Below, piece after piece: positions 5,702-42,828 of a stretch of 64,000 nucleotides of DNA (its first letter is position 1; every line of letters starts with the position of its first letter). The notes beneath the pieces were generated by a model. It searched no databases. It was not told where the DNA came from and saw only the letters and a program-made list of their open reading frames with translations. The translations under genes were made by a program, and so were the position numbers. This DNA comes from an uncultured Lachnospiraceae bacterium (GTDB taxonomy: Bacteria > Bacillota > Clostridia > Lachnospirales > Lachnospiraceae): NCBI GenBank assembly GCA_946546945.1, contig CAMNOU010000003.1:124001-188000 (forward strand), written 5' to 3'.

Positions 5702-5713
5702 AGCGTTCCCTTT
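5687..5713 (+). terminator. Hairpin spanning the stop codon of the sialidase-like gene
   Basis: 8-bp perfect stem GGGAACGC/GCGTTCCC (5687-5694, 5703-5710). The TAG stop codon lies in the loop and only TTT follows, so termination may be weak. Confidence 0.45.
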
Positions 5714-5738
5714 CCACCTTCGGCACAGCCGATGTATG

Positions 5739-9366: not shown

Positions 9367-9407
9367 GCTTGTTACCTCACGACTTCTCATAGTATTGTGT
9401 TGTCATT

Positions 9408-22808: not shown

Positions 22809-24002
22809 TTAATCCCGACGGAACAAATCTCTCGTATACACCTTTTGTTCAACATCTTTCAGGCTCTCATCAAAACGATTGGCCAGAATCACATCGCTTT
22901 CTGCTTTAAATGTGTTTAAATCATTTTCAACGACGCAATCAAAAAATGTGCTTTTATCTTCTAATGTCGGCTCATATATGATAATCGGGATTCCTTTTGA
23001 GAGGATTTGCTTCATGATATCCTGGATCGCAGATGCCCGGAAATTATCACTGTTGCTCTTCATTGTCAATCGATAGACCCCCACTTTTGAAGGGTTCGTT
23101 CGCATGATGCTGTCCGCGATAAATTCTTTTCGCACGATATTGCTTTCAACAACAGCTTTAATCATAGTCTGCGGTACGTCCTTGTAATTTGCCAGAAGCT
23201 GCTTGGTATCTTTTGGCAGACAATATCCGCCATATCCGAAAGAAGGATTATTATAATGGGACCCAATTCTCGGGTCCATGCATACCCCGTCAATAATCTG
23301 CTGGGTGTTCAATCCTTTCATCTGTGCGTAGGTATCCAGTTCATTAAAATACGACACACGCACTGCAAGATATGTATTTGCAAAAAGTTTAATCGCTTCT
23401 GCCTCTGTCGGGTTCGCAATGAGCACCGGTATATCTTTGACTGCTGCTCCCTCTTTGAGCAGGTCTGCAAACAGGGAAGCCTCTTCTGATTGTTCCGCAT
23501 ACGCTCCAACAACAATACGGGAAGGATAAAGATTATCATACAAAGCCTTTGACTCGCGAAGGAATTCCGGGCTGAAGATTATATTGCTGATTCCGTATTT
23601 TTTTCTTACAGAATCGGTATATCCTACCGGCACGGTTGATTTAATCACCATAAGAACATTTGGATTCACCTTCAAAACAGTTTCTATTGCATCTTCCACT
23701 GCGCTGGTATCAAAGAAATGGTGTTCATCATCGTAATTTGTAGGTGTTGCAATTATTACAAGATCTGCAGACCGATATGCAGCTTCTTTATCAATGGTTG
23801 TATACAAAGCAAGCGTCCTTTTGCCGTCTTTTGCTTCCGCAAAAAATCGTTCAATCTCATCGTCCTGGATCGGGCTGATAAACTGATTTAATTTTTCTGC
23901 TTTTTCAGGAGTTGTCGTTATTGCTGTCACCTCATGATTCTGTGCCAGGAGTACTGCCAGAGAGAGTCCGACATATCCCACACCCGCTACTGTAATCTTC
24001 AT
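22809..24002 (-). CDS. ugd: UDP-glucose 6-dehydrogenase
   Basis: 397 residues. It oxidises UDP-glucose to UDP-glucuronate with two NAD+, supplying an acidic sugar for the surface glycan. Seen: N-terminal Rossmann [37 protein letters not shown] and the catalytic-Cys block [12 protein letters not shown], then [12 protein letters not shown], all diagnostic of the short bacterial form. GTGG-type ribosome site upstream. It lies in line with the giant glycosyltransferase upstream (57-base gap) and DUF6270 copy B downstream. Confidence 0.95.
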
Positions 24003-24059: not shown

Positions 24060-27000
24060 CTATGACAGCCTGCGAAGTAATTCCAGACATTCTTTCTGGT
24101 TTTTAAGAATTTGGTCCAGAGATTGCTTTAAGTCTTCCAGTTCTCCCTGCAGTGATGCAATCTGACGATGTACTCCCGGGTCTTCACTTTTCACCATCTG
24201 TTCCCCAAAAACCGAATCATAGTCACATCCCAGAGCCTCTGTAAGATATCTGAGACATCGTTTTCTCTCAGAATTTAAAACAGCATTTACTTTGGAGTAG
24301 TCGATCGCATGTTCAAATGTTCTCTCTTTTTCAATATCTTCAAGCGTGACTTTCCAGCGATCCATCAGCCCAAGCAATCCGAGAATCGACCGGAATCTTG
24401 TGCGCCCCCAGGGCTTGTTCGAACAGCAAATAAATTGTTTATTATATACAACAGCCATTACCGTTCCATGATGCGAATCGGTAATCATATACTTTGCGTG
24501 CTTGATGTAGTAAAGCCAATCTTCTTCTCCTACATCCCGTACTGTGTCCGGAAGATTCATTACGGCATGATTCTTCTTGAATGAATGCGCTTTCCCGTGA
24601 AGAATATTGACCATAGGCAGTCCCAGTCTCCTGGATGCCTCCAGAATGATTTTCTTTTTCTCTTCTGATGGTTCAAGAATATAAGTGACCAGATAATTCT
24701 CATGCTCAACTTCCCGCTTTGACGCTGCCGCGATTTTATCGTATTCGGAAACATCGAGGAGGAATGCCGGATCCAATACCCATGTGGCATCTCTTCCAAA
24801 TTTCTCCTGACATATTCCGACTGCAGATTTTTCGCGAACAGAAATCAGGTCAAATTCTGAAATACACTTTCGTGCATTCTTCATAATCTCATCCGACACA
24901 TTAAAGTGTTCACCGAATGAAGCTGCATATGCAATCTTCTTTTTTGCTCTTTTTATGAAGTCCAGGAAAAAGAAATACTTATATGATTTGACTGCTCCGG
25001 GTCCCCAGACCTGATCAGATCCAATCATGAATGTGTCCGCTATGGAATTATAATTCTCCAACTCATTCCAGCCCAGACTATTGGTTGTTCTGCAGTGTGT
25101 TTCCATAAATATTCTGGAAAAAACATCCAGTCCATCTCCATGTTTTTCTTTCTCCGGCCGGTCTAAAAGAATAGGTTTGAGCCCCATTTGTTCAACCAGA
25201 CGATAAAGAGCATAATAAGTAACTACACTTCCATAGTTAGATGACCACCAATACCCCGTAATCCCCACATCATAAGGTTTTTTATCATTTATTGAATGAT
25301 TTTTTAATGCATCTTCCTTGGTCTGTTTATTATTCCTCCAGGTATGTTCCAGCCATTCATGTGCGCGTTTCTGTTCTCCGGAAAGGATGTCATCGATTCG
25401 ACTATAATCAATGTCTGAAACTTCTTCGAACTTCACAGCCTCTTTTCCTTCTGTTGCTGTCATACAGTTTTCCAGCCCCATACGTTTCAGCAAATCCATG
25501 ATTTTATCTTCATCACTGCCAGACGCAATCGCCGCAAATGGCCGATGAAATCTCAGGGTCAGACAAACCATATCATATCTGTCAGTCACACAGAAACGGC
25601 TGCCCTTAACTAACGCTGCAATATCCTCAGTCGATATGTCAGCCAGTGACTTTACTTTCGAAGAGCTATCCGAATTGTTCTCAGCATACACAACAAGCTG
25701 ACATCCCAGTTTCTGTCCAAGTCTGTCTAACTGCATTCCGGCTTGCTCGGTCCATTTATCTAATAATGCAGCCACATATGGCTTCTCCGGATGCATATCT
25801 GATTTCTGCACAAGAGAATCCAGGTGCCTCTGATCACATACCAGCAGCGGTTCCAGAATATTTTCCGGCCAGCATGCTATTCTTTTGGAGTCATTCACAA
25901 AATAGAGCGGTATTGTTTCCTTATTCCCCGGGCCCAATAGCATCTGATCACAAAAATGATTAATCTCAGGCATGTTTTCCGGCTTTCTCTGTTTGGAAAC
26001 ATTGAAAAATCTCTTCATAAATTCAATGTCGGCTGCAGCATTTCCTTTTTCAATATTCCCCGAAATACTGCTGATTACAATTGGAAGAATGCCACAATCA
26101 TCCGCAACAGCTGCCAGAGAAAACCCTGCCAGCAGACCTCGATGACCATGATTCTGCCAATTTTCAATTACTCCAAAATCATATCTTTTCTTTTGTCCGT
26201 ACCAGAGAGCCTTATGGTATCCATCCTTATCTAAGTGTTGAAAAAAATACTTCCTTCCGCCACTCATCTTTTTGGGCTGCCGCAATTGCCCATTATGCGC
26301 TGCAGCAAAATCTAAAGGAGCTGCTTCGCATAGTTTCATAGATGGTTTCAGGCTGTCAAAAACAGATTTACTTTTCAGTGAATTGCAGATTACAACGGAT
26401 GTGCCCATCCCATCATTAAACTCCGGATTATACCTGTTAACCTGCCAAAAATCTCCCAAAGTAAAATCTCCGGTCCTCTTCTTCGCAGCATAATGGCACG
26501 TGCTGCAGCACAACCGATTCATAATGCCCTGAAGGAACCCGATATACCAGCTGGATTTTTTCTTATCAGGGTGTTCTATATAATTCGTCCCGTCCGCAAA
26601 ATATATATTTACATTCGATCTCCATCCATAGTTTTCTTTCTCACGGAAATCGACTCTTGATATTTCCCTTCCTTTTGCAATTTCTTTCAAATACAGTTGA
26701 TATGCTTTCAAGGAATTCGAGCCATGGCACACCAAATCTGCCGTAATTAAATTGTCATAGTCTTTTTCCAGGAATCCATATAGCCCGGAGACCTGACAAG
26801 GACACCCCGTAAAAAGAACTTTTCTCCCCACTTCAAGAATCTGTTTTATTTGAGAATAACAGTCTCCTGTCTCACTTTGAACATATTTCGAACTCCTAAG
26901 ACGATTCAATTCTTCTGAGGATTCTACAATGATATGCTGCACTTTTCTGTAATCAGAAGCGTACGCGGCACCGCATACTGCTCCGCCCTGATTCAGAACA

Positions 27001-29165
27001 AATTCAGCCAGCAGTGTGAACATTCCTCCTGAGGAGCTGACTTTCCGGATCTCATCCGATGCCATCACGGCATAGCATTCTCCCTCCTCGCGGAGGCAGC
27101 TTCCGTCATATCCCACCTCAGGGCATACCTGCCGGCACTTTGTGCATCCGACACAGAGCTCTGCATTCACAACCGGATAGATAAATCCTTCCGAATTGTA
27201 CTGCATAGAGATCGCATTGACCGGGCAGGCATTATAACAGGCACCACAGCCTGTACAGCGATCTTCACTGACCGTTTTTATTGTTTTCTCTTCCATCATT
27301 TTGAAACTCCTTTGATCTATCAGTTTCTTCCATACCTCTTCATGATTGATTTTGTTTCCCTGAAAGGACAAACACATCCGGAATATGCCTGTCTGGCTGT
27401 CAGAGAGTTGTTTCATCAATTGTTCTTTTTCTTTGGCTTCAAGTCTTCCGTAACTGTTATATAATGCGCGCAGAAAACGCTCTATATGTTTTTTTACAGT
27501 CCTGAAAACCTCTTGTTTTTTTTCATAGCATGACTGCATGACTTCAATAGAAAGTCTTATGACTTCTATCCATGACATCGTTTTTTCAAGTTCTTTTTTT
27601 GATGTCATAATAGAATTCTCTCTGATTCTGCGCAGATACAGCGGGGCACTAACGTATAAAACTCTGCTTGCAGCCGGAAGAACTCTGATCTGAAACAGAT
27701 TATCTTCATGCGCAAAAAGTTCCGGGAAAAGCGGTTCTGTTTCCAGCAGGAACTCTCTTCTGAACATCTGCATTCCGACAGGCACTATAAAATCATAGGC
27801 TTTTCTTAACAATATGTATAATTCTTCTCCAGCATATACTTTCGGATAAGCTTCTTTCCTCTTATAACGGTTTTTAAACTCAGGAAAATCTTTTTCCAGT
27901 TTCTCTGAATCATAAAACGTCTGACCATCACAGCAGACGATATCTAAATCATTTTCAGAAAGTTTCCTGAACAGTATTTCATAAAAATGTTTGTCAAGGA
28001 GATCATCTGAATCCATAAAATGTATGTATTTTCCTCTTGCCAGATGAACTCCTTTGTTTCTTTCATACCCGGGACCATGGTTGGTATCTGTGTATAAAAA
28101 TACATTATTATATTTTACTGTATATTCTCTGATTATCTCTTTCGTAGAATCAGTTGATCCATCATCAAGGCACAGTATTTCCAGATCATTGAACGTCTGA
28201 AACAATATACTCTCAAGCGCATCTCCAATGTATTTTTCAACATTGTAGCAGGGAATGATCACAGATATAGCCGGTCCGTCATGTGATGCATCAGATACAG
28301 GAATCAGCTCATTTTTCAGCGGCGCTCTCAAATAGGCCGAAATCCACTCGGAAGCAAATGCTCCGTCCGGGTCTTTCCATGGTTTGTCTTGTGAAGAAAA
28401 ATGAATGATAGATGCATCTGCAAATAATTCATTTTTATTTTTGTAGGCCGCATGATATGTGGAATTAATCTGATCAATCGTCCACCTATGATAGTCGCGA
28501 TATAAAATTACCGGCATAAAGTTGAACCGAATTGGCAGTTCCGTAAACTTTCCGGCAAAAGCCAGGTTGTACACCTTCTGCTCCATGAGAGATGAATCAT
28601 TTATATTTCTCCCGGTTTCCTGCAATACAGAAACAACATTATCATCTCTCATCTTTTGAAGATTCATAATCATCACACCACAGTTGAAGTATTTTTCTAC
28701 TCCGTTCGCAATGTCATGCTGCAATCTGTTCCCGTCCGGCTCTACTGCAGCTGCAATATAACTGGATTCTGACAAATGGATTCCATATAAATCGGACAAA
28801 TCGTGTTTAACAATAATATCACTGTCAAGATACAGTACGCGATTGATATCTTTCAGCAAGTCAGGAATCCGCAATTTAAGCAATGCCGCAATAGATGCCG
28901 TACAGTTTTTTCTTTCCTCAAAAAGGCGATATCCTGCAAATCTGCCATTGGCATCTTCGCAAATAATAGTGATTGACAGATTATCTGATTCCAGCTTTTT
29001 TAAATACTGTCCCGATTTTTCTGACAGCCCGCCGGTTATCACAAACAAACGATAATAACTGCTTTCATGCATCGTATCCTTCATGGATTGGATCGCCGCC
29101 ATTGTGGGTACTATATAATTATCATCCGTAATCATACAGATATTAACGTATGAATGTTCCATCAT
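24060..29165 (-). CDS. Giant fusion: GT8 - GT2 - 2[4Fe-4S] ferredoxin - FrhB - two pyruvyl-transferase domains
   Basis: 1701 residues, intact frame. Domains in order: GT8 glycosyltransferase (about 5-275; DSD at 114-116, NCGVMIMN, KPWKDP); GT2 (about 299-560; LDDGSTD near 334, DSDD 385-388); ferredoxin with two CxxCxxCxxxC sets (Cys637/640/643/647 and 671/674/677/681); FrhB-like F420-hydrogenase beta domain (about 695-975; SSSGGMF, TGCPCQVSGL, LGDFWQVN); a degenerate pyruvyl-transferase-like domain (about 995-1270); a canonical polysaccharide pyruvyl transferase (about 1297-1620; GSDQVW 1382-1387, DSHHGT 1563-1568); and a coiled coil (about 1664-1700). No signal peptide, so cytoplasmic. It likely adds two or more sugars and a pyruvate ketal; the redox module's role is unknown. 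The neighbour at 33175-35862 carries three of these domains in another order. Confidence 0.9.
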   Translation of the reverse strand: MMEHSYVNICMITDDNYIVPTMAAIQSMKDTMHESSYYRLFVITGGLSEKSGQYLKKLESDNLSITIICEDANGRFAGYRLFEERKNCTASIAALLKLRIPDLLKDINRVLYLDSDIIVKHDLSDLYGIHLSESSYIAAAVEPDGNRLQHDIANGVEKYFNCGVMIMNLQKMRDDNVVSVLQETGRNINDSSLMEQKVYNLAFAGKFTELPIRFNFMPVILYRDYHRWTIDQINSTYHAAYKNKNELFADASIIHFSSQDKPWKDPDGAFASEWISAYLRAPLKNELIPVSDASHDGPAISVIIPCYNVEKYIGDALESILFQTFNDLEILCLDDGSTDSTKEIIREYTVKYNNVFLYTDTNHGPGYERNKGVHLARGKYIHFMDSDDLLDKHFYEILFRKLSENDLDIVCCDGQTFYDSEKLEKDFPEFKNRYKRKEAYPKVYAGEELYILLRKAYDFIVPVGMQMFRREFLLETEPLFPELFAHEDNLFQIRVLPAASRVLYVSAPLYLRRIRENSIMTSKKELEKTMSWIEVIRLSIEVMQSCYEKKQEVFRTVKKHIERFLRALYNSYGRLEAKEKEQLMKQLSDSQTGIFRMCLSFQGNKINHEEVWKKLIDQRSFKMMEEKTIKTVSEDRCTGCGACYNACPVNAISMQYNSEGFIYPVVNAELCVGCTKCRQVCPEVGYDGSCLREEGECYAVMASDEIRKVSSSGGMFTLLAEFVLNQGGAVCGAAYASDYRKVQHIIVESSEELNRLRSSKYVQSETGDCYSQIKQILEVGRKVLFTGCPCQVSGLYGFLEKDYDNLITADLVCHGSNSLKAYQLYLKEIAKGREISRVDFREKENYGWRSNVNIYFADGTNYIEHPDKKKSSWYIGFLQGIMNRLCCSTCHYAAKKRTGDFTLGDFWQVNRYNPEFNDGMGTSVVICNSLKSKSVFDSLKPSMKLCEAAPLDFAAAHNGQLRQPKKMSGGRKYFFQHLDKDGYHKALWYGQKKRYDFGVIENWQNHGHRGLLAGFSLAAVADDCGILPIVISSISGNIEKGNAAADIEFMKRFFNVSKQRKPENMPEINHFCDQMLLGPGNKETIPLYFVNDSKRIACWPENILEPLLVCDQRHLDSLVQKSDMHPEKPYVAALLDKWTEQAGMQLDRLGQKLGCQLVVYAENNSDSSSKVKSLADISTEDIAALVKGSRFCVTDRYDMVCLTLRFHRPFAAIASGSDEDKIMDLLKRMGLENCMTATEGKEAVKFEEVSDIDYSRIDDILSGEQKRAHEWLEHTWRNNKQTKEDALKNHSINDKKPYDVGITGYWWSSNYGSVVTYYALYRLVEQMGLKPILLDRPEKEKHGDGLDVFSRIFMETHCRTTNSLGWNELENYNSIADTFMIGSDQVWGPGAVKSYKYFFFLDFIKRAKKKIAYAASFGEHFNVSDEIMKNARKCISEFDLISVREKSAVGICQEKFGRDATWVLDPAFLLDVSEYDKIAAASKREVEHENYLVTYILEPSEEKKKIILEASRRLGLPMVNILHGKAHSFKKNHAVMNLPDTVRDVGEEDWLYYIKHAKYMITDSHHGTVMAVVYNKQFICCSNKPWGRTRFRSILGLLGLMDRWKVTLEDIEKERTFEHAIDYSKVNAVLNSERKRCLRYLTEALGCDYDSVFGEQMVKSEDPGVHRQIASLQGELEDLKQSLDQILKNQKECLELLRRLS

Positions 29166-29190: not shown

Positions 29191-32100
29191 TTATTCCATA
29201 GGAATTCTCGTCAGCGGAATCTCTCTGTACGGAGATTCTGAATAATATTTGTCATATAATTCTGACAAATATCCCATCTCATATTTCCACGGCTTTTCAT
29301 GACTGCCCAGATGAAGGATTACCGCATTCCTGTATGCTTCAATACGCTCTGACGGAAGCTGCTCGTCATAAAAAACAGATAGTTTCATATAATCCCACCA
29401 GTCATAGAACTTGTTCAGGAAATTATACCTGGGAGAAACGAATTTAACTTTTTCTCCGAGAACCACGTTCAATGTATCCTGATCCATAAAATGATTCTTG
29501 CCGTGAAGTCTGTAATCGACCAGCTTTTCTGTCATATTATCCTTTCTCATCTTTGACAGATTCATCAGCATCATCCCGGAATTAAAATAGTAGGTATGAG
29601 GATAGTTCAGGTTCTTAAGATGTTTTGGATTCCGTTCAGAAATAATATCCTTCACGGCCGCAACATAATAGCCATCAATATCCGTATTGTATACATCAAG
29701 CAAATCATCCTGAATCAGAATATCTCCATCCAGATATAAAACTTTTCCAACATACGGAAGCAGCTGCGGAATCCTCAGCTTGATAATTGCCGCAGTAGAC
29801 ACATGGAGGTCTCCATCCCCCTTGGTGTACCCACTGAATCTGGGATCTTCCTGGACATCCATAAGATCAATCTGGAAGTCATCGGATGATAATTGCATTA
29901 ATCTTGCTTTGCCATCCTCATCAATTCCGGAAGACATCACGTGAATCTTATATACCGTGTCATAATTCTTATTTAATTTGAGAGATGTCAGTGCGACACT
30001 GGTAGGCATACAGTAATTCTGATCTGAAATAAATGCCAGATGAACGATCCTGTTATCCTGTTTCACAGGTTTGTTTCTCCCGGTATTTGTTCTCCTTTTC
30101 CCATTTGCGGCATAAAAAGATGAAAGGAAGAAATCCAGTTTATCCCTATATTCATCCTCGATGTTTTTCTTGTCTTTTTTCAGCCCGGCTACCTCTCTTT
30201 GAAGTTTTTCAATCTCACCCTTATATTTACGAATCCGATAGACAGAAGGGAACATTTCCGGTTCTTCCAGGACCATTTTAAGTTCCTCTTTTTCCTGCTT
30301 CGTAAACAGATACCAGGCAACTTCTCCCGCTTCATCAGCCTCTTTCAGTTCCTTATGGAAGGCTGTCAGGTACTCAAGTTTAAACTCCGGCGCCAGTCTG
30401 TTATATGTAAAGAGATAATTCAGGAACCGCTTTGTGTTATACTGGTAGATATACTTTTTCTCCAGCTCCGGATATTCCTTCAGTCTGTTGCGGATGAGCG
30501 CATATTCTTCATTCATGCAGTATACTTTTGCTTTGCTTGCAACAGAGGAATTCGGATTGTCCCTGCGATTATAGTAATAAGGGAAGTTGTGTACCATGAT
30601 TCTTGAAGCAAAAACCAATGTCTGGAACCAGAATCCATTATCCTGGAAAGACGCACCCGGTGTTTCGTTATGCCGGATATGATTTCTTTCCAGAAAATCT
30701 CTTTTATAAATACCGCTCCAGGTATTCATCATGTAACGGAAAACATCGCTGTCAACTGCCGGATTTTTTACGATTTCATAATTACTCTGTTCCTTCGCAA
30801 CCATATGATAGGAAACGATCTGATTTCCCCGCTCATCATGTGTAAATCTGTAAAAATCACCCTTCACATAATCAAGCTCATTTTCAATAGCGATCTGATA
30901 AAGTTCTTCATACATGCGGACATCCACATAGTCATCCGGTTCAAGGATCGCTATATACTCACCGCGCGCACGGTCAAGTCCCTGGTTCATTGCATGACCA
31001 TAACCGCCATTCGGCCCTGTGATCACAACGATTCTGCTGTCCATTTTTTCATATTCCCGGATAATATCCAGACAACTGTCGGTTGACCCGTCATCGACAC
31101 AGATAATCTCGATATTATGCATCGTCTGATAGACGGCACTGTCCAGGCAAAGACGGAGATACTGCTCAACATTATAAATCGGGATAATAACAGATACTTT
31201 CGGATTCCCCGATATATTGTTTGCAGCCGAACCGCTCTCCATGATTTCACGCATTTCAACATACTGATCGTGATTATAAAAATCCTCCTCAGATGCATTG
31301 CAAATATCCATATCAGCAAAATACCGCTGTTTCAGCTGCTGTTTTACCAATTCGCCGAAATGGCCGCCGAAGTTATGCATATTCCAGAGTGAAAAATCCA
31401 GGCCCCAATTGATAAAGCTCTTTTTGTATTCATCATAAATACCATTGTCTGACAGGAAGTTCTTCACTCCCATCAAAGCCTTGTAGTAATTTGATGTCAT
31501 ATATTCGATATCTTCGGAAAGATATCTGGGATGGCCAACCCTCTGATGTACCAGAATATCCTCTAAGGTAATAAACCGCTGCGATTGTGTAAATGCAGAA
31601 AAGGTAAACACCATATCATTACTGGAGGAAACACTCTGGAAGCGAATTCCTTTCTCACGGATCAGCGATGTCTTAAAGATTTTGTCCCAGGGAGTACAGC
31701 TGGACATATTAAATAATTTTCCGGATACATCCTGTGCGGAAAAAGGCCTCTGCTCCGGCATCTCCCATGTACGCATCGTCCATGGGCATTCTCTGAAATC
31801 ACCGGAATTATGATCATATTGATTACAGCGGAACAGACAGATATCAGCATCTGCCTCTTTTGCTGCCAGATATGCCTTCTCTAACATGTCAGGGGCCGCA
31901 AAATCATCTGCATCCAGGAATGCCAGATATTCTCCTGATGCGGCATCAAGTCCCATGTTTCTTGCATCGCCGGCATTAGAGTGTTCTTTTGTTATCACAT
32001 GTACACGTTCATCACGCTTCTCATACTCGTGCAGGATTTCCAGAGAGTTATCTGCCGATCCGTCATCCACACACAATATCTCGATATTATAAAGTGTCTG

Positions 32101-33147
32101 GTTGATAAGACTGTCCATACTCTGATGTAAATAATCTCCCGCCTGATATACAGGCATGATTACAGAAACTTTTGCGCTGCCATCCATGATTGTTTTCATT
32201 CTGTTGTACTCCTTTTTGTTGTAATAATAAGTGTATTCATTTCCAGTAATGTCTAAACTGTCAAAGAATTCTTCACGGCATTTCTGCTTCAGCTTTTCTG
32301 CTGCTTCCGGTTCTAAAGTGTCTATGTGCCACAAGATCAGATTTAATGCCCAATTCACAAAACTCTGCTTATATGTCTCATAAATGCCGTCATCTGTCAG
32401 TTTATCTTTCAATGCTTTTAGGGCAAGATAACAGTTATCCCAGGATTTTTCCCGGGTCATGGACAGAGATTTTTTCATATTTATTCTGTGATGGGCTAAT
32501 ACAGGATTGATCACGAAAATCCGGTCTGCCTTTGTATACAGATAATAAACAAACAGCATGTCGTTCGTGCTGCGTATCTCCTGAAAAGTCATCTCGTTTC
32601 GGGAAACAAAATCTCTTCTGTAAAGCTTGTCCCAGGCCCATCCGCAGCCGATATTGAAGATCCTGTCCGGGATATCTGATGCACAAAACGGATTGTTCTT
32701 TAACATCCAGGGCATAATGCTCCAGTCACACGCCGAAAACGCTTCCTTCTGATGATCATATTGATCACAGCGGAACACTACGATATCCGCTTTCTGTTCC
32801 TCTACGGCTGTGTACGCCAGGCGGAGCATATCTCTGTCAAAGAAATCATCCGCATCAAGTACGGAAAGATATTCTCCTCTTGCAGCTTGCATGCCCTTAT
32901 TTCTGGCAGCTCCGGCGCCGGCATGTTCTTGTTCAATCACTATGATTCGGTTATCCTGTTCCTGATATTGTTTCAGGATTTCCAGAGAACGATCTGTAGA
33001 AGCATCATCAACACAAATCACTTCCATCTCTTTCAACGTCTGATTTAAGATACTGTCCAGACACTGAGGAAGAAACAGCTCTGCATTATATACAGCTACT
33101 ACTACTGATATTTTTGGCCTTAAATTGCTTATTTCTATATCACTCAT
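29191..33147 (-). CDS. Four-domain glycosyltransferase: GT2 - GT2 - GT2 - GT8
   Basis: 1318 residues from ATG 33147 (AGGG about 7 bases upstream; the TTG 15 bases further out overlaps that site). Three GT2 domains start near residues 11, 326 and 650, each with PKVSVIxPVYN-type strand 1, a CVDDGS or CVDDAS motif and LDADDF (first two) or LEPDDY (third). A coiled-coil linker (about 970-1005) leads to a GT8 domain (about 1032-1318; DGD at 1140-1142, FNSGMMLMNL, LGSHEKPWKYE). It is cytoplasmic and probably builds several linkages of a repeat unit in one chain. GT2 domains 1 and 2 share long matching stretches (RCDQYDH/RCNQYDH, WDKLY/WDKIF), so one arose by internal duplication. It lies 25 bases before the next fusion. 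Confidence 0.9.
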   Translation of the reverse strand: MSDIEISNLRPKISVVVAVYNAELFLPQCLDSILNQTLKEMEVICVDDASTDRSLEILKQYQEQDNRIIVIEQEHAGAGAARNKGMQAARGEYLSVLDADDFFDRDMLRLAYTAVEEQKADIVVFRCDQYDHQKEAFSACDWSIMPWMLKNNPFCASDIPDRIFNIGCGWAWDKLYRRDFVSRNEMTFQEIRSTNDMLFVYYLYTKADRIFVINPVLAHHRINMKKSLSMTREKSWDNCYLALKALKDKLTDDGIYETYKQSFVNWALNLILWHIDTLEPEAAEKLKQKCREEFFDSLDITGNEYTYYYNKKEYNRMKTIMDGSAKVSVIMPVYQAGDYLHQSMDSLINQTLYNIEILCVDDGSADNSLEILHEYEKRDERVHVITKEHSNAGDARNMGLDAASGEYLAFLDADDFAAPDMLEKAYLAAKEADADICLFRCNQYDHNSGDFRECPWTMRTWEMPEQRPFSAQDVSGKLFNMSSCTPWDKIFKTSLIREKGIRFQSVSSSNDMVFTFSAFTQSQRFITLEDILVHQRVGHPRYLSEDIEYMTSNYYKALMGVKNFLSDNGIYDEYKKSFINWGLDFSLWNMHNFGGHFGELVKQQLKQRYFADMDICNASEEDFYNHDQYVEMREIMESGSAANNISGNPKVSVIIPIYNVEQYLRLCLDSAVYQTMHNIEIICVDDGSTDSCLDIIREYEKMDSRIVVITGPNGGYGHAMNQGLDRARGEYIAILEPDDYVDVRMYEELYQIAIENELDYVKGDFYRFTHDERGNQIVSYHMVAKEQSNYEIVKNPAVDSDVFRYMMNTWSGIYKRDFLERNHIRHNETPGASFQDNGFWFQTLVFASRIMVHNFPYYYNRRDNPNSSVASKAKVYCMNEEYALIRNRLKEYPELEKKYIYQYNTKRFLNYLFTYNRLAPEFKLEYLTAFHKELKEADEAGEVAWYLFTKQEKEELKMVLEEPEMFPSVYRIRKYKGEIEKLQREVAGLKKDKKNIEDEYRDKLDFFLSSFYAANGKRRTNTGRNKPVKQDNRIVHLAFISDQNYCMPTSVALTSLKLNKNYDTVYKIHVMSSGIDEDGKARLMQLSSDDFQIDLMDVQEDPRFSGYTKGDGDLHVSTAAIIKLRIPQLLPYVGKVLYLDGDILIQDDLLDVYNTDIDGYYVAAVKDIISERNPKHLKNLNYPHTYYFNSGMMLMNLSKMRKDNMTEKLVDYRLHGKNHFMDQDTLNVVLGEKVKFVSPRYNFLNKFYDWWDYMKLSVFYDEQLPSERIEAYRNAVILHLGSHEKPWKYEMGYLSELYDKYYSESPYREIPLTRIPME

Positions 33148-33174
33148 ACCTATACCCTGCAAATATGGCGCTGC

Positions 33175-35862
33175 TTAAATTGATTCCGAAATGTTAATAT
33201 ATGCAATCATGAGGAAATTGTTCGGTCCGCTTACCTGTGCTGCTCCAAACATGAACTCATCATAAAAACCGGCATTTGGTTCAAATACATCTGAGAACTC
33301 AATCCATGTCTGTCCGTCATTTCTTCCTCTGATTTCCTCGGTATGGATGACCTGATTTGTCTTCCCGCCGCTGTCAATCAGATGGAAATTCAAGATATCC
33401 GCATTTGATTTAATTCGGAATTTGGCCGACAGCTTATACTTCTGCCCCCTTTTCAGCATGCAGCTCATGGAAAGTCTGGCATAATGTCCGTTTTCTTTCC
33501 ACTTATTGCTCTTGACAATCAATGTCGGACATCCTTCTATCATATGCTCTTCCCAGATGCTGTTTTCTGCTTTGAACCGAAGCATCGTCCGGTCGAAGCG
33601 AAGCGGGGTATTACTGTTCCTGTAGGCTTTCCGGAATTTCCCATGGTTGGGCTTCAGCGCATAGTTCACAGCCTCTCCGAAAGGCATGGTCAGGATGGCA
33701 TCATAAAACTCATCCCGCTGAGGAGAGCAGAAGTTATGGCCTCCATTTCTGGAATACCCATTTCCTCCCATCCAGGAAAGAGGAACCTTTTTCTTCACCC
33801 GGCTCTTTTCTTCCGGAATAGCTTCAAAAAACAATCTTCCCTTTGTGTTATTCGCAAGGACTAACGAGACTCCTTTGAATGTATCCAGTGAAGGATCCAG
33901 TTTGCTGATTCCCCAGAAATCACCGATTGTCAGATCCCCGACACGCGGGAAAGCCTGATATCTGCACTTTTCACAGTGAGGAGCGCACATTGTATGATTA
34001 TGATAAACGCGCTGATAATCATCCTCTCTGGCACCATTATGGATCATCTCTTCTCCATCTTCCATCTCCGCCCGGATGTGGAAGGCATCCCATTTGACTT
34101 CATCCGACTTATAACGGAACTGATAGGACTTCACTTCATAACCAAATGTATAATCCAGATATTTCTTGAAGAACATCGTCGACGGAGCGTTCCCGCACAG
34201 TAAGTCTACAGCGATCAGATTGTCATATTCTTTTGCCAGATAGGCCCGAAGTCCGGTCACCTGGCATGGTGTCCCGGAAAAAAGAACATATCTTCCGGCA
34301 TCCAGATACTCTTTCACTTTTTTCAGACAAGTGCCAATATAACTCTGGAGATATTTGGATTTCTGAAGCTTCCATAAATCCGCTTCTTTCTCTATGATGA
34401 TGTGCTCAACCGTTAAGTCATCTTTCCACGCAGCACCAACGACAACGCCATTCTTTGAAAAAATCTCACTGGCCAAAGCAGTAAATACTCCGCCGCTGGA
34501 ACTCTTTCGAAGCACTTCATCATCGGAAGATACAAATTCATAACAGGCAGCATTCGTTGTGTTTTGGTTTTCCGGGAGAGAAATCCCCGGACACACCTTT
34601 GCACATTTCCCGCATTCGATACATTTTTCACTGTCTAAAGAAGATCTGTAATATCCCCATTCATCCATCTTCAGTGAAAGTGCGTCAACCGGACATGCTG
34701 CCACACATGCGCCGCATCCGCTGCACATCGTCTTTCTCAGCTGGCTTGTTACCGCTTTCGAATGCAGCGGATACAGTTTTTCCATCAGCCAGCAATAACT
34801 GCGGTCTCTTTCCGGAGCTATTTTTTGCTCCACGATTTCATAATCTATATAATCCGTATCTTCTCCGAGGCCGAGATATTTCTGTCCGATTTGAAGCGGC
34901 TCCGTCACCATGCTGTTGCCAAGACCGATCGGATCCAGAAGGCTCGAGAACCTGCCCCCTCCCCGTTTATTGTTTCTGAGTACAATAAACGGTCGGTGAA
35001 AGATGATGGAGAAGCACGCGCCGTGGAAGGAATCCGTCAGCACGAAGTCTGCCTTCTGATAACATGCCATCCACATATTTACGGGAGGATCCTGTAAAAC
35101 GATCAGATCAGGGTGTTCTATCCCAAGGAGTTTCAGTTTCTCCTGTTTATCTGCGGCTTCATCAAAGGCAATCACCATCTTCTTCCCTGAAACTTCCAGT
35201 ATCTTCAGCAGGCTCTGCCCGATCTCTTTGTTCGGATCCAGAATATAAGCAAAGATATAATCCTTAAAGGGAATCGGGTCAATCTCCTCGATCAGCCCTT
35301 CATAAGCAGATACCGGACACAAAAATACAGGATCCATCACCTGTACTGCTTCCAGCTGAAATTCCTTTTCCAGGATTCTTTTTGAAAAATCATCCCGCAC
35401 CGAAAGTCCCGAAAAATGCATCAGGTTCTTTTTGATTTTGGGCTTCTCAGATGCCGGACCATTGTATGGTTCCTTCCCGAAGGAAGTTCCATACGCGATT
35501 TTTACGGAATCGCTTTCCGCAAAGTCCAGAAAATACGACTGTTTATAAGGTTTGCTCAATCCGTAGTTCCACATCTGATCAGAACCCAGCAGAAACCCTT
35601 TGCACAGACTGTTCAGTTTCTGCATATCCGTCAGTCTGTAACGCGGTGTGATCTCATAATGATTCATCGCAAATCTTCTCGGATGCGATTCCGGCAGACT
35701 CTCTATTTTTAAGGAATCTTTGTTCAGGGGGTTTTCTATCATCACAGTAGAATACCCCATATCTTCCACCACTGTCCGCAGTGCGAAATAAGTGCTTATG
35801 CTGCCGTAATTCCGGCCATACCATAACCCGAATATGCCAATATCGTATTTTTGTTTGTCCAT
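33175..35862 (-). CDS. Polysaccharide pyruvyl transferase - ferredoxin - FrhB fusion with C-terminal beta-sandwich
   Basis: 895 residues. Pyruvyl-transferase domain (about 4-330; YGRNYGSISTYFALR, GSDQMW near 93-98, DSFHGACF near 277); ferredoxin with Cys380/383/386/390 and Cys414/417/420/424; FrhB-like domain (about 440-735; SSSGGVFTAL, SGTPCQVTGL, IGDFWGISKLD); and a C-terminal module (about 765-895; SCMLKRGQKYKLSAKFRIK) resembling a CBM4/galactose-binding sandwich. The family puts pyruvate from phosphoenolpyruvate onto sugar hydroxyls; the redox module is of unknown purpose. The first Cys of GCPCQ in the giant fusion is Thr here (GTPCQ), so the two FrhB domains may differ in activity. The sandwich may hold the acceptor glycan. 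Same operon direction as both neighbours. Confidence 0.88.
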   Translation of the reverse strand: MDKQKYDIGIFGLWYGRNYGSISTYFALRTVVEDMGYSTVMIENPLNKDSLKIESLPESHPRRFAMNHYEITPRYRLTDMQKLNSLCKGFLLGSDQMWNYGLSKPYKQSYFLDFAESDSVKIAYGTSFGKEPYNGPASEKPKIKKNLMHFSGLSVRDDFSKRILEKEFQLEAVQVMDPVFLCPVSAYEGLIEEIDPIPFKDYIFAYILDPNKEIGQSLLKILEVSGKKMVIAFDEAADKQEKLKLLGIEHPDLIVLQDPPVNMWMACYQKADFVLTDSFHGACFSIIFHRPFIVLRNNKRGGGRFSSLLDPIGLGNSMVTEPLQIGQKYLGLGEDTDYIDYEIVEQKIAPERDRSYCWLMEKLYPLHSKAVTSQLRKTMCSGCGACVAACPVDALSLKMDEWGYYRSSLDSEKCIECGKCAKVCPGISLPENQNTTNAACYEFVSSDDEVLRKSSSGGVFTALASEIFSKNGVVVGAAWKDDLTVEHIIIEKEADLWKLQKSKYLQSYIGTCLKKVKEYLDAGRYVLFSGTPCQVTGLRAYLAKEYDNLIAVDLLCGNAPSTMFFKKYLDYTFGYEVKSYQFRYKSDEVKWDAFHIRAEMEDGEEMIHNGAREDDYQRVYHNHTMCAPHCEKCRYQAFPRVGDLTIGDFWGISKLDPSLDTFKGVSLVLANNTKGRLFFEAIPEEKSRVKKKVPLSWMGGNGYSRNGGHNFCSPQRDEFYDAILTMPFGEAVNYALKPNHGKFRKAYRNSNTPLRFDRTMLRFKAENSIWEEHMIEGCPTLIVKSNKWKENGHYARLSMSCMLKRGQKYKLSAKFRIKSNADILNFHLIDSGGKTNQVIHTEEIRGRNDGQTWIEFSDVFEPNAGFYDEFMFGAAQVSGPNNFLMIAYINISESI

Positions 35863-35892: not shown

Positions 35893-37710
35893 TTACTTCA
35901 GGTATTCCATCCAGAAAGGCTTTCCTTCCATCATCTTTTCTTCCGCCTGAAATGCTTTCGCTACCTGTTCATATTCCGCGTCGTAACGTTTCATCAGGTT
36001 TTCGTAACGGGATACTGTCTTTGCGTATTGCTGCCTGTCACGTGTATATTTCACATACAGGTCATTCACGGGGTCTACTGCGTATACAGTCCCGGCTTTA
36101 TAGAGTTTCTGCTGAGAGTATCCCCAACCGTAAGGAATCGATGTGACTCCTTTCCCCGCAAATGATTCGGGAAGCTTATGCCCGTTTACAAAATGCCCAT
36201 ACATCTTCAATTTCCATCCGCTCAACGGAGCACTGGAATACAGGTTTGCATAATCTATAAACGGGCGTATGTCATCCGTAATTGGCTGCAGTTGGTTATC
36301 TTCCGCCTTCTTCTGCTTCATGCAGGCTTCTCCGTCAAGATTTTTTATAAACTCCGGGCCTTTCAGGAAATCTTCAATTGCATCTAAAAGAAGATTGCAG
36401 CCCTTATAATTGAATTTAAATATTTCCTCCCAGAACAATTTCCTGATTCGTTCTATTACAGTAATATCACTGATATGTTTATTCATCGTCTGAAGGATCA
36501 GATCATTCCGGTGTACCTGATACAGTTCCATGGAACCGGAGAATTTTGTACCAAATCCTTCGTGCCAGATACAGATTCCATTCATGGTAATAAATTTGGC
36601 GTGATTCCGGATGGAATACTCTACATCATCTCCACGGATAAAGAACGGCAGGGGAAGGTTGTCTTCCCTGGCAATCGTCGTCGGTATACAGCAATACCAC
36701 CATCCGCTGTACTGATGTTCGTCTTCCTCCAGGATTTCTTCATTTCGAATCACACTGTCCCAGAGATTCAAGTCATACCGGGGTTTTGTCGGTCCATGTT
36801 CGCCGGTCAGGCGGAACATTCCTACATCCTCATGCTGAATATTTCTCTGGTTGATTTCAAGCATCGCTCCACTGATGAAATAATCATCATATTCCGGTTT
36901 CAGCAAACTCAGCAGCTGATAAAGTCTGCGGAAACTCTCGGGCATAAAATACACATCATCATCCATCAGAAGAATATGTGTCGGTTTCTTTTTCTGCTGC
37001 AGCGCTTCGATCATTCCCCTGCAAAATCCACCGCTGCCTCCGACATTTCTATTTGGAATCACTTCAATATAGGAATTGTTATATTCCTCCGGTTCCAGCG
37101 TGGAACCGTTGTCCACTATTTTCCATGTAAAATGTCTGCTGAGTTCCGGATCCGCAAAAATGCTGGCATTTAACAAATCCACATTTTTGCGCACATACTT
37201 CTCTTTTTTAAACGTCGTTGTAGCAAGAGTAATGAAGGGATCTCTCAAATCAGCTTCCTTTACTTCAGCGGTATAACATCCTTCATAAAATTCTGTATCT
37301 TTCGTGGCGTAAATCTGAAAAGAAACTACCTCGCTTTCCATTTTTTCCGGATAAGGGAGCACAATATGTTCGCGCTCTTCCAGTTCAAACAGATAATTTC
37401 CCAACCACTCCTTGTGGATATTATGATCTTTATCTATATAATGTCCCATCAGATTCAGACAGAAAGTTCCTTTCATATCGAGTTCCAGAGAAACATTCTT
37501 TACTGCTGTATACTTCTCCCATTTTGCGAAGGAACAAGAATTAAAATATGTAGAAAAATCATAATATCCCTTCATCAGCCGATATCCGGTATCTCCGCCA
37601 TGCTCCTTCAGCATCCGGAAATCACTCCTGTAATGCATATTACTTGTCTCATCGAGATCCGGTATGCTTTCTATAATTAATGTCTGAAGAATTACTTTCT
37701 GACTCATCAT
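35893..37710 (-). CDS. GlfT2-like galactofuranosyltransferase A
   Basis: 605 residues from ATG 37710 (AGGAG five bases upstream). The frame is open further out, but that part would overlap the preceding gene and has no family similarity. An N-terminal beta-sandwich (about 1-160) precedes a GT-A domain with TLATTTFKK, DNGSTL, NRNVGGSGGF (about 220-229), MDDDV (Asp 250-252), FFIRGDDVEY (about 358-365) and IWHEGFG (His383). This set is the signature of GlfT2-type galactan synthases, which use UDP-galactofuranose. With glf in the same window, a galactofuranose product is a strong inference. It pairs with the shorter paralogue at 38696-40174. Confidence 0.88.
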   Translation of the reverse strand: MMSQKVILQTLIIESIPDLDETSNMHYRSDFRMLKEHGGDTGYRLMKGYYDFSTYFNSCSFAKWEKYTAVKNVSLELDMKGTFCLNLMGHYIDKDHNIHKEWLGNYLFELEEREHIVLPYPEKMESEVVSFQIYATKDTEFYEGCYTAEVKEADLRDPFITLATTTFKKEKYVRKNVDLLNASIFADPELSRHFTWKIVDNGSTLEPEEYNNSYIEVIPNRNVGGSGGFCRGMIEALQQKKKPTHILLMDDDVYFMPESFRRLYQLLSLLKPEYDDYFISGAMLEINQRNIQHEDVGMFRLTGEHGPTKPRYDLNLWDSVIRNEEILEEDEHQYSGWWYCCIPTTIAREDNLPLPFFIRGDDVEYSIRNHAKFITMNGICIWHEGFGTKFSGSMELYQVHRNDLILQTMNKHISDITVIERIRKLFWEEIFKFNYKGCNLLLDAIEDFLKGPEFIKNLDGEACMKQKKAEDNQLQPITDDIRPFIDYANLYSSAPLSGWKLKMYGHFVNGHKLPESFAGKGVTSIPYGWGYSQQKLYKAGTVYAVDPVNDLYVKYTRDRQQYAKTVSRYENLMKRYDAEYEQVAKAFQAEEKMMEGKPFWMEYLK

Positions 37711-37772
37711 TTTCTCTCCTGCATCATATTTTTCCCTAGTATTTGCGTTCTTATCTGTCGCCCTGAAATCTT

Positions 37773-38705
37773 TTATACGTTGATCTGATCTTCCAGTTTC
37801 TTCAGTTTTTTCTGAAGTTCCTGAATTTGTGTTTTCATGCCGTACATCATGGAACTGTTCGCGATTCTGCTTTCTAATTTGTTCCTCAGCGACTGTTCTT
37901 TCCACAAATTTTCAATTGTATTCTGATTCGAATAATGTGTAATCACATCCAATGCCCGTTCAAAATATGCATATGTGTCTGACATATAGTGAAGGGGATG
38001 CACTCCGTTCATATGATTCAAAGTAGAATGTGTCAGATCCGGAAATCGTATTACCTGTGCCTCAGGAATGTATTTTTCCAAAAAGCTGTAAAGCTGTTTC
38101 AGCCAATCATTGCATTTCTTAATCTGATATTTTTTGTTATGCCTGGTCAAATTTCCATCATTTCCCATGATATCCGCAGTATATAACGCCTCCAGAATCA
38201 CGATCTGATCCGGTCTGTAACCATCTTGATTATCCTTACTCCAGACAATCTCCGAAACGAACTTTTTGTACTTTCGCTCAACTGTCCGCATATCCATCTC
38301 TGTCGGGGAATAAACAGAACCCTGCACATATTTATTCTCACCGCTAAATAAAGGTTCATATGCAGTTTCCTTTCCTTCCAGCAAAGCCAGCTGCGTTTCG
38401 ATCTCTCCCTGTATTTCGCAGCGCTGCATCAGTTCGGCTGCCAAATCAATGATGAGATAATCAGATTTGTTTTTCCGCAGAAGCTGAGGCAGGATTCTTC
38501 CCGTCTGGATGCGAAGCATCGTATTTTCATAGCTGCTGAAACTAAGTTTCTCTACTGCAGCATTATCGAATTCCAAAACCGGCTCGTACAGTGTCGAAAC
38601 CGGCACCTGTGTAACACATCTTGTGAATTTATATTTTGCCGGATCTGTGTGTCGAAACAAATCCATCCCCACACAGCTTCCAAATACATCTATTGTTAAT
38701 GCCAT
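37773..38705 (-). CDS. DUF6270-like protein, copy C
   Basis: 310 residues from ATG 38705, chosen because GGGAGG lies seven bases upstream; the ATG two codons earlier almost touches that site. MALTIDVFGSCVGMDLF is the family's N-terminal block and NGVHPLHYMSDTYAYFERALDVI the late block. Instead of the Rossmann-like tail of copies A and B it ends in a charged coiled coil (about 275-310). It sits between the two GlfT2-like genes and overlaps the upstream one by 10 bases, so translation is probably coupled. A role in modifying the galactofuranose-bearing chain is possible but not shown. Confidence 0.72.
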   Translation of the reverse strand: MALTIDVFGSCVGMDLFRHTDPAKYKFTRCVTQVPVSTLYEPVLEFDNAAVEKLSFSSYENTMLRIQTGRILPQLLRKNKSDYLIIDLAAELMQRCEIQGEIETQLALLEGKETAYEPLFSGENKYVQGSVYSPTEMDMRTVERKYKKFVSEIVWSKDNQDGYRPDQIVILEALYTADIMGNDGNLTRHNKKYQIKKCNDWLKQLYSFLEKYIPEAQVIRFPDLTHSTLNHMNGVHPLHYMSDTYAYFERALDVITHYSNQNTIENLWKEQSLRNKLESRIANSSMMYGMKTQIQELQKKLKKLEDQINV

Positions 38706-40174
38706 ATACATTCCTCCCGTTCTTTTTGGTATCTGTCTGCAATTCGACAAAAGTTGTTTCTGACATATTTCTCTGCTCTTCTGTGAAGAACCGGAGTTAC
38801 AATTCGAATCAGCCTTTTTTTATCTGCCATCTTCATCTGATACTCCGGAATCTGTCCCTGCCGGCTGTCAAATATTTTCCCTGTTGCGAAATGCCAGAGA
38901 GCCAGAGCACATAAATATTTTTCCGTATATTTTTTTTCATTGTGATACTGATCCAGTCTCTGTTTCCAGGGAACAATGATATCTTCCGCATCTTTATAAA
39001 GACCCTGCATCACATTTACTACCATGGGATTTCGCTGATCATAATAGAAAATTCTGTTATTCATGCGATATTCATAGGTCTCATGCCACACTTGAAATCC
39101 CCGGAGTACCAGAACTTGCTTCCCGGTACGCAGACCATATTCCACATCGTCACAGTGTATAAAGAATGGAAATGGTTTCTGAACAGATGTAACTGATTTC
39201 GGAAAGACACATAGCCACCAGCCTCCGTATTCTCCGGCAAGTTCCTCGGACTCCACATTGTATCCCCATGTCATATCCTGATTGCCGCCGCTGTGTGTCA
39301 GCTTGCCGCCGTTCCAGTTCTCTGCCGCCGTATATTGTATTCCGCGATTATCCTGCCGGAACATTCGTCCGGCCACCGGCAAATCTGTATAATCATCTCT
39401 AAGGAATGTGAGAAAGGCAAACAGCCGGTAAAAACTTTCAGTCTGAAACTCCACATCATCATCCATAAAGACCACATGCGTATACGGAAAACTTTTCTGA
39501 TCTTTGCAGATCTCTTCCAGACCCCTGGTAAAACCTCCCGTACCTCCGCCACGATTAGAGTTGCGGCAGATGCGGATCCTGCTGTTTTCATGGTCTCTTC
39601 CAAAATCATCTCCGTTATCAGTGACAAATATCTTCATTTTCCCGCCGTATGATGTATCGACATCAAAAAACAGGCTTTTTTCCAGCTTTACAAGGTTCCT
39701 TTCCAGCTGAAGATTTCTGTGAAAGGTACAGATATTCAATGCCAGATAAATCTGTCTGTCCGATTCTTTTTCAGTAACAAATCCGGCGCCGTAAAACTGT
39801 ACTTCCCCGATTGCCTCGATCAGGAAATAGAGAATACCCTCCATCGAATTTAAATCCAAAAGATATTTTTCTGTATGCCTTTGTTCAGAGCAGCACTCCC
39901 GGGTAAGGACAGCTTTCTCGCCATCTGACTTCCGAAGAATTACATGCAGATTGTATTGTCCTTTTGCCTCTATCTGCAGTTTTACCTGTTCTGCTGTCGT
40001 ATAACGTTTCCAAAAACTTATATCCAAACAATTCATATAGGTATCTGTGGACAACCGGCCTCCCGGGGCCAATGCAATACATCCGCAGGACTGGTCAAAA
40101 GCTCCATCTGTCCGGAAATATATTTTTTGAATGCCGCACACTTCATCTGGCCAAATCACATTCTGCAATACCAT
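38696..40174 (-). CDS. GlfT2-like galactofuranosyltransferase B
   Basis: 492 residues. A beta-sandwich N-terminus (about 1-135) and a GT-A domain with LNICTFHRN, TDNGDD, NSNRGGGTGGF (about 205-215), MDDDV (Asp 238-240), FFIHCDDVEY (about 337-346) and VWHE (about 362-365). It shares every motif with protein A but lacks about 100 C-terminal residues. The ATG at 40174 has AAGGA almost touching it; the TTG two codons on (40168) is better spaced and may be the true start. It lies eight bases after the ABC ATPase gene. Two such enzymes could make alternating linkages, or start and extend the chain. Confidence 0.85.
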   Translation of the reverse strand: MVLQNVIWPDEVCGIQKIYFRTDGAFDQSCGCIALAPGGRLSTDTYMNCLDISFWKRYTTAEQVKLQIEAKGQYNLHVILRKSDGEKAVLTRECCSEQRHTEKYLLDLNSMEGILYFLIEAIGEVQFYGAGFVTEKESDRQIYLALNICTFHRNLQLERNLVKLEKSLFFDVDTSYGGKMKIFVTDNGDDFGRDHENSRIRICRNSNRGGGTGGFTRGLEEICKDQKSFPYTHVVFMDDDVEFQTESFYRLFAFLTFLRDDYTDLPVAGRMFRQDNRGIQYTAAENWNGGKLTHSGGNQDMTWGYNVESEELAGEYGGWWLCVFPKSVTSVQKPFPFFIHCDDVEYGLRTGKQVLVLRGFQVWHETYEYRMNNRIFYYDQRNPMVVNVMQGLYKDAEDIIVPWKQRLDQYHNEKKYTEKYLCALALWHFATGKIFDSRQGQIPEYQMKMADKKRLIRIVTPVLHRRAEKYVRNNFCRIADRYQKEREECIWH

Positions 40175-42057: not shown

Positions 42058-42828
42058 CTAGACCTTCTGCATAATCTTGTTCTTATTTCGGGTAAAAATA
42101 AGATGCCCGATTACATATACAACGACTCCCCATACCATAATCCGGATTATTTCATCAGCTGGTGGAAACGAGTGTTGAAGCACAAGGCAACGCAGGCAGT
42201 CAATGTAGTTAAAAATCGGATTTGAGAATACAATTTTTCTTACGATCCCCCCCAGTTTATCTACCGGATAGAACAAGGCGGACATATACATCCATAAAGT
42301 CAAAACCACTGAATATAAGTGTTTTACATCCCCGAAAAAGACATAAGCAGTAGCGACAATATAGGATACTCCCAGTGCAAACAGCAGCAGAAAGAACACA
42401 ATAACCGGCATAAATATAATCTTCCAATCCGGGAATACCCGAAAAACAACGATCATGGCTGCATAGGCGATCAGCGAATACAGAAAGTTTACAAAAGCTG
42501 TATATACTCTTGCCAGAATAAATATCTGCATCGGCAGCCGCATTTTTATCAGCATTGTCTTATTATCCACCAGTGTGGTCATGGCTGCATTTGTGGCTGT
42601 TGTAAACATATGCCACAAAATCGATCCGCTCAGATAGTAAATTGGATAGTTTTCCATTCTTTCAAATATCTGGGAAAAGACAAGTGAAATGACCGCCATG
42701 GAGAGGAGCGGATTCAGCACACTCCAGACGATGCCCAGCTTTGATCTGGCGTATCTTCTCTTGATCTCTCTGGATGTCAGCTCACGGATGACAAACCAGT
42801 ATTGTTTGCGTTGTTCCTTTTTATCCAT
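42058..42828 (-). CDS. ABC-2 type glycan export permease (Wzm/TagG family)
   Basis: 256 residues with about six membrane segments and the family start LTSREIKRRYARSKLGIVWSVLNPLL, which is highly typical of O-antigen/teichoic acid exporters. It forms the channel through which lipid-linked glycan crosses the membrane, driven by the adjacent ATPase. It overlaps the upstream ARDG-domain gene by eight bases, so the genes are translationally coupled. Its presence and the lack of a flippase or polymerase indicate ABC-dependent export. Confidence 0.92.
   Translation of the reverse strand: MDKKEQRKQYWFVIRELTSREIKRRYARSKLGIVWSVLNPLLSMAVISLVFSQIFERMENYPIYYLSGSILWHMFTTATNAAMTTLVDNKTMLIKMRLPMQIFILARVYTAFVNFLYSLIAYAAMIVVFRVFPDWKIIFMPVIVFFLLLFALGVSYIVATAYVFFGDVKHLYSVVLTLWMYMSALFYPVDKLGGIVRKIVFSNPIFNYIDCLRCLVLQHSFPPADEIIRIMVWGVVVYVIGHLIFTRNKNKIMQKV

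Follow-up and report, generated by a model that had tools for sequence, protein, structure and literature searches.

A candidate lactyl-ether-forming glycan megasynthase joining glycosyltransferase, ferredoxin-FrhB, and pyruvyltransferase domains in a Lachnospiraceae bacterium

What does a redox module do in the same polypeptide chain as enzymes of sugar transfer and pyruvylation? The question is raised by a single gene in a 64,000-nucleotide stretch of DNA (hereafter, the window) from an uncultured Lachnospiraceae bacterium (GenBank assembly GCA_946546945.1, contig CAMNOU010000003.1, positions 124,001 to 188,000 of the forward strand), which encodes a fusion of two glycosyltransferase domains, a ferredoxin, an FrhB-type domain (FrhB_FdhB, PF04422/PF04432; hereafter FrhB), and two pyruvyltransferase domains (PS_pyruv_trans, PF04230; hereafter PT). 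From sequence comparisons, we favor with moderate confidence the reading that this protein is a megasynthase that forms lactyl ethers on a surface polysaccharide exported by an ATP-binding cassette (ABC) transporter. An earlier reading of the sequence (the original prediction) had proposed that a redox reaction is channeled together with sugar transfer and pyruvylation; the general idea of a redox step coupled to pyruvyl transfer stood, while its suggested reduction of a sugar or ketal gave way, as the comparison favors reduction of an enolpyruvyl group to a lactyl ether.

In the reaction that we propose, the GT8 and GT2 domains would, judging by their families, add sugars, and the intact PT would join a sugar hydroxyl to phosphoenolpyruvate (PEP), releasing phosphate and leaving an enolpyruvyl (or oxocarbenium) intermediate, a reaction that takes ketal formation halfway. 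Electrons would pass from ferredoxin through two [4Fe-4S] clusters to the [4Fe-4S]/flavin adenine dinucleotide (FAD) site of FrhB, where the intermediate would become a 1-carboxyethyl (lactyl) ether by a reduction like that of the MurA product by MurB. The other PT copy would have lost catalysis, its role probably being structural or to bind the acceptor, and a neighboring PT-ferredoxin-FrhB protein could attach one more lactyl ether or serve a different residue. We infer the FAD, the route of the electrons, the reaction with its acceptor, and the in-cis order, as well as the roles of the two glycosyltransferase domains and of the dead PT copy within the chain. In muramic acid synthesis, PEP transfer by MurA is followed by flavin-dependent reduction to a lactyl ether by MurB. 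The overall reaction proposed for the fusion is like theirs, but there is no sequence relation, MurB uses reduced nicotinamide adenine dinucleotide phosphate (NADPH) and a different FAD fold, and the acceptor of the Mur enzymes is UDP-N-acetylglucosamine; no domain of 5-enolpyruvylshikimate-3-phosphate synthase or MurB type was matched in the fusion by Pfam at E ≤ 0.1. In our view, a role of FrhB in reducing or opening a completed pyruvate ketal, or in sensing the redox state to control pyruvylation, is very unlikely. Such a role would fit the same gene pairs, and FrhB-fold proteins are reported to reduce several unrelated substrates. An enol ether is nevertheless the easier substrate, with MurB as a precedent, and no precedent is known for ketal reduction.

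The fusion frame opens with ATG, has no internal stop, and comprises the following parts, given with window coordinates and amino acid (aa) positions:

24060..29165, minus strand: the 1701-aa fusion, in the order GT8, GT2, ferredoxin with two [4Fe-4S] sets, FrhB, degenerate PT, PT, coiled-coil-like tail
28371..29144, minus strand: GT8 domain, aa 8-265 (Pfam, 1e-40; motifs DSD and H..S..KPW)
27876..28265, minus strand: GT2 domain, aa 301-430 (Pfam, 8e-33; motifs DDGSTD and DSDD)
27123..27257, minus strand: two 4Fe-4S cysteine sets, aa 637-681 (Pfam Fer4, 2e-12, two stretches)
26868..27074, minus strand: FrhB_FdhB_N, aa 698-766 (Pfam, 2e-8)
26334..26825, minus strand: FrhB_FdhB_C, aa 781-944 (Pfam, 3e-15; cysteines C790, C813, C887, and C890)
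25290..26192, minus strand: degenerate PT domain, aa 992-1292 (blastp, PT profile, and motif alignment)
24231..25271, minus strand: canonical PT domain, aa 1299-1645 (Pfam PS_pyruv_trans at 1310-1584, 7e-35; motifs intact)
24063..24170, minus strand: short C-terminal coiled-coil-like tail, aa 1666-1701 (by sequence inspection)

All six Pfam families scored above their own curated cut-offs, with a DxD motif in the GT8 domain and a DxD-type motif in the GT2 domain. The ferredoxin sets comprise cysteines 637/640/643/647 and 671/674/677/681. The original prediction was borne out in its single intact frame with GT8, GT2, FrhB, and PT, in its two 4Fe-4S cysteine sets, and, by inspection, in its coiled coil; the domain search that it proposed likewise returned both the FrhB and the ferredoxin profiles. 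The structure prediction that it called for was obtained for residues 600-1660 (mean predicted local distance difference test score, pLDDT, 75.0; predicted template modeling score, pTM, 0.48), with the degenerate PT region left unmodeled.

The prediction of one degenerate and one canonical PT also held, in homology and in motif loss alike. Residues 992-1292 share 18 to 20% identity with the PT domains found in two sister proteins (blastp, E about 1e-12), and residues 1102-1274 match, at 8e-23, a PT profile whose training sequences did not include this stretch. Aligned with 46 PT domains, this copy proves to lack the GSDQ-W motif and two invariant residues, the Arg of S-V-R-E and the His; the lost positions align to gaps, Pro, or Asp, so that homology alone places it in PS_pyruv_trans. 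The copy at 1299-1645 scores above the family cut-off and retains the invariant Arg, the His, and the GSD motif.

Could the long frame be an assembly join, or a decayed and nonfunctional relic? The genome is a draft (65 contigs, 92% complete), one PT copy is degenerate, and we found no second FrhB frame of such size. Against this, 5.1 kb stay open, with an even G+C content (0.37-0.44 across all six segments), inside a 194-kb contig, an AGGA-type ribosome site (seen by eye) lies immediately 5′ of the frame, and the gene sits in a tight operon. The second PT and both glycosyltransferase domains, GT8 and GT2, retain their catalytic motifs, as FrhB does its cluster cysteines, and we regard a join or relic as very improbable. 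Both halves of the protein also occur elsewhere as units: GT8-GT2 in a 684-aa frame (locus L007) and FrhB-PT in many genomes.

The FrhB module matches both Pfam halves and the fold of the family, and its C790, C813, C887, and C890 are invariant in 26 aligned FrhB sequences, including those of E. coli; the second ferredoxin cysteine set of the fusion is not among the all-conserved columns of that alignment. Fold and sequence profile are common to this module and the F420-reducing FrhB/FdhB/Fsr proteins (8riu, 8rja, and 7npa), from which it differs in that F420 synthesis was not found in its genome: at 92% completeness, CofE gave no match and CofH four weak ones, none above the cut-off. This agrees with the statement in the original prediction that Firmicutes of this type are not known to make F420, although at this completeness it is not final, and F420 dependence was rejected as the main idea on this ground. 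A comparison with 7-hydroxymethyl chlorophyll a reductase (HCAR, 5dqr) gave 15% identity, with a different substrate and different partner domains.

The pairing of FrhB with PT recurs widely. FrhB_C is carried by 93 of 391 genomes of the window's class, with 123 matches (summed per-genome counts). Sixteen FrhB matches lie in frames longer than 700 aa, three in this genome and 13 in others (739-835 aa), and a PT domain is present in all 13 of the latter. PT precedes FrhB in seven of them (L105, L106, L107, L109, L111, L113, and L114; detected by Pfam alone in L106 and as a weak profile match in L109) and follows it in six (L108, L110, L112, L115, L116, and L117, with a DUF6270 domain in between in L110). 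This fusion in both orders suggests that both enzymes work on one substrate. The fused chains of L103, L105 to L109, and L111 to L117 share their core domains with the window fusion, but they span 739-835 codons, and no second PT or glycosyltransferase domain was found in them in the searches made. The survey of fusions suggested by the original prediction thus found the FrhB-PT core recurring and the full-size fusion only once, its 1716-codon frame being the sole one of such size among the FrhB frames surveyed.

Mid-size FrhB frames (539-602) numbered four in the list, and L118, L119, and L120 were read: L120 shows, where its contig ends, a PT remnant that scores under the cut-off, and in L118 FrhB adjoins a GT2-PT fusion (4210-6216), a further glycosyltransferase joined to part of the module. 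We also hand-picked 20 short-frame FrhB matches from the same class list and read 10 to 16 kb around each. A PT gene lay within 5.1 kb of FrhB in 17 of these unfused loci (three by Pfam alone, one on the opposite strand, and three with weak scores), which, together with the fusions, upholds the original claim that the two genes co-occur in polysaccharide loci. Among nearer relatives and other fetched genomes, PT was found within 5 kb of 15 of the 20 above-cut-off FrhB genes outside this genome, a count that omits a below-cut-off FrhB match in a genome without a PT match (G032); of the five others, three lie on short contigs and two outside polysaccharide loci.

A possible link between this gene pair and lactyl ethers came from E. 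coli O124/O164, lactyl-ether (lactyl-glucose) antigens that were named as the test case ahead of any E. coli search. DNA searches of E. coli with Bacteroides and Pseudobutyrivibrio FrhB gave no match, and FrhB was absent from all four proteobacterial genomes tried. Of 392 genomes in the family of one whose gnd shares 87% identity with the E. coli gene, 2 carried FrhB; FrhB genes reached through this family were then used to probe 5,426 E. coli genomes at the DNA level, a search that diverged copies may escape. Matches fell in O124/O164-annotated loci (five genomes), O69 (three), an IAI1-type galF-gnd locus (eight), and a plasmid (one), and PT was adjacent to FrhB or one gene away in all four E. 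coli loci fully read. The prenamed O124/O164 locus carries FrhB and PT, as do the O69 and IAI1 loci. An S. dysenteriae O antigen contains 4-O-[(R)-1-carboxyethyl]-D-glucose (PMC10609480). FrhB is identical across the five O124/O164 genomes, where PT is whole in two and annotated as two pieces in three. We take the S. dysenteriae antigen to be that of type 3, equal to O124, with O164 presumably free of the lactyl group. The split PT would fit a loss of the lactyl group in some strains; O124 and O164 are described as identical in gene cluster and only occasionally cross-reacting (PMC4732683).

The E. coli pairs are separate genes in a polysaccharide locus and differ from the fusion in having no glycosyltransferase domain or pseudo-PT in the chain. 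Their PTs have the conserved motifs of the window PT and lie on the tree side opposite WcaK. In this tree, of a quick kind with 70 rows (56 FrhB-linked and 14 unlinked) and several long branches, the FrhB-link label changed 7 times versus 13.0 in shuffles, with 0 of 500 shuffles as low. One side (support 97) comprised 49 rows, 45 of them linked, among them the PTs of the window and those paired with FrhB in enterobacteria, and the other comprised 21, of which 11 were linked; WcaK, the ketal enzyme of colanic acid, fell on this second side. When the whole O124 PT was added, the fusion PT, O124, and all six other enterobacterial linked rows fell in an all-linked set of 18 rows (support 96). The fusion PT equals the O124 PT at all 12 positions conserved in at least 80% of the FrhB-linked rows.

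The same logic could apply to another 2-oxo acid or another ether, such as the 2,4-dihydroxypentanoic acid ethers of Providencia. Such ethers do exist in O antigens (PMC10609480), and the PT sequences of our set are very diverse. The O124 case nonetheless points to lactyl, as does the agreement of the two PTs at the conserved positions, and we consider another acid or ether quite unlikely.

Capsules of Klebsiella bear on the proposed lactyl ether from a different side. Types K8, K22, K37, and K66 have PT genes yet no pyruvate (PMC4616057), and K22 contains 4-O-[(S)-1-carboxyethyl]-GlcA (a title cited in PMC3857182). Among 79 Klebsiella types, one F420-hydrogenase gene and two nitroreductase genes are reported, and the cps loci of K22 and K37 are nearly identical.

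Several observations weigh against the lactyl-ether proposal. With a single F420-hydrogenase gene among the 79 types and nearly identical cps loci, K22 and K37 cannot both use FrhB, and another reductase would be needed there. The pyruvate-free K8, which has a PT gene, is not known to carry a lactyl group, and neither is the O69 polymer. Within the tree, the 18-row set depends on the rows included (without O124, the enterobacterial rows join a larger set at 87), 11 FrhB-linked PTs share WcaK's side, and the sample is biased, having been drawn partly with a PT profile trained mainly on FrhB-linked PTs. In the survey, L119 showed no PT in the 7 kb read, its FrhB being joined to a hexapeptide domain instead, and three of the 20 hand-picked matches, namely L125 (close to the end of its contig), L126, and L140, had no PT nearby. 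The two FrhB genes of relatives that lie outside polysaccharide loci (L100 9396-10574 and L102 9726-10763) have no evident polysaccharide genes around them on inspection and probably serve another function.

The picked loci without PT would also suit an alternative in which the product of PT is a normal pyruvate ketal, while FrhB acts on the sugar in a redox step of its own, e.g., keto-sugar reduction or hydroxyl oxidation, and is simply coinherited. PS_pyruv_trans members of known function, such as WcaK, make ketals. CsaB (PMC6030368) is among them as well. Fusion in both orders and in all 13 long frames suggests one substrate instead, and K22 and K37 have a PT gene without pyruvate; we judge a separate redox step unlikely. 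That PT with ferredoxin-FrhB is a widespread second solution of the MurA/MurB type, here built into a megasynthase with a dead PT as scaffold, is a broader claim that we hold tentatively, at somewhat less than even confidence. The literature searched contained no published proposal of a lactyl role for FrhB-PT, which may be in print elsewhere.

Other reductases may accompany PT. The E. faecalis locus for lactate on galactofuranose (Galf) presumably holds a MurB-like gene. Lactic acid on Galf is reported for this species (PMC3060912). In E. coli NT1F34 (L056 9198-11353), a PT gene after rmlBDAC is directly followed by an FAD_binding_4 protein, possibly a MurB-like reductase in FrhB's stead; a search with this pair returned two genomes, O58 not among them. 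The E. coli plasmid pBDSF8-3_3 (L055) carries a pair of PT genes that are almost the same in sequence, one after FrhB and the other after a short nitroreductase-annotated frame without a Pfam match; insertion sequences and a fragment of wzc surround them. Two-piece PT annotations near FrhB also occur on Pseudobutyrivibrio/Ruminococcus albus plasmids (L039 10855-11980 and L040 5206-6449), and with the three O124/O164 E. coli they may reflect repeated loss of PT.

The fusion gene lies within a tight minus-strand cluster that runs from a Wzm/Wzt-like exporter through transferases, DUF6270 genes, an 895-aa and a 1323-aa protein, and the fusion to a dehydrogenase. Its other members, and a mutase gene farther off, are:

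42058..42828, minus strand: Wzm-like ABC-2 permease (Pfam)
40183..42048, minus strand: Wzt-like ABC ATPase with an N-terminal extracellular-looking part (Pfam and inspection)
38696..40174, minus strand: GlfT2-like glycosyltransferase (Pfam)
35893..37905, minus strand: glycosyltransferase of GT2 type whose N-terminal match to GlfT2 is weak and below the family cut-off (Pfam)
33175..35862, minus strand: 895-aa protein, the cluster's second with FrhB, in the order PT, ferredoxin, FrhB, and a C-terminal part without a Pfam match
29191..33162, minus strand: 1323-aa protein with three GT2 domains and one GT8 domain (Pfam)
22809..24002, minus strand: UDP-glucose/GDP-mannose dehydrogenase family (Pfam)
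8266..9390, minus strand: UDP-galactopyranose mutase, Glf (PF03275 match at window 8326-8928; G000:C3:132326-132928)

The Glf frame is the sole PF03275 match in the genome. The 895-aa neighbor gave a predicted model with pLDDT 86.9 and pTM 0.76. A paralogous cluster (L004) occupies the 20 kb directly preceding the window, with a 922-aa PT-ferredoxin-FrhB protein (53% identity to the 895-aa neighbor), a 1610-aa multi-GT2 protein (61% identity over 938 residues to the 1323-aa protein), and, from inspected translations, repeats of the exporter, transferase, and DUF6270 genes; all three FrhB_C matches of the genome sit in these two clusters. DUF6270 genes occur three times in the window (20076-21332, 21465-22730, and 37773-38750), and the domain lies between FrhB and PT in L110 (1812-4043), a partner without known function that is perhaps of the same pathway. 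The Wzt-like ATPase (window 40183-42048, minus strand; L004 15918-17783, minus strand) has a signal-peptide-like start and a transmembrane helix ahead of its ATPase domain, with a cohesin/cadherin-like extracellular region (matched to PF12733 in the window copy and otherwise recognized by inspecting the copy in L004), and such an in-frame extracellular part looks unusual for Wzt.

Many genomes of the window's class have FrhB-type genes, mostly beside or within PT genes of surface-polysaccharide loci, and annotation names these genes coenzyme F420 hydrogenase, in E. coli as well. If the proposal is true, then the module would be a ferredoxin-driven counterpart of MurB, and a redox gene whose presence in many surface-sugar clusters has been puzzling would acquire a function. 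It would also explain capsule types that have a pyruvyltransferase gene yet are pyruvate-free, and FrhB-type genes would be reannotated, making lactyl-ether sugars predictable from sequence.
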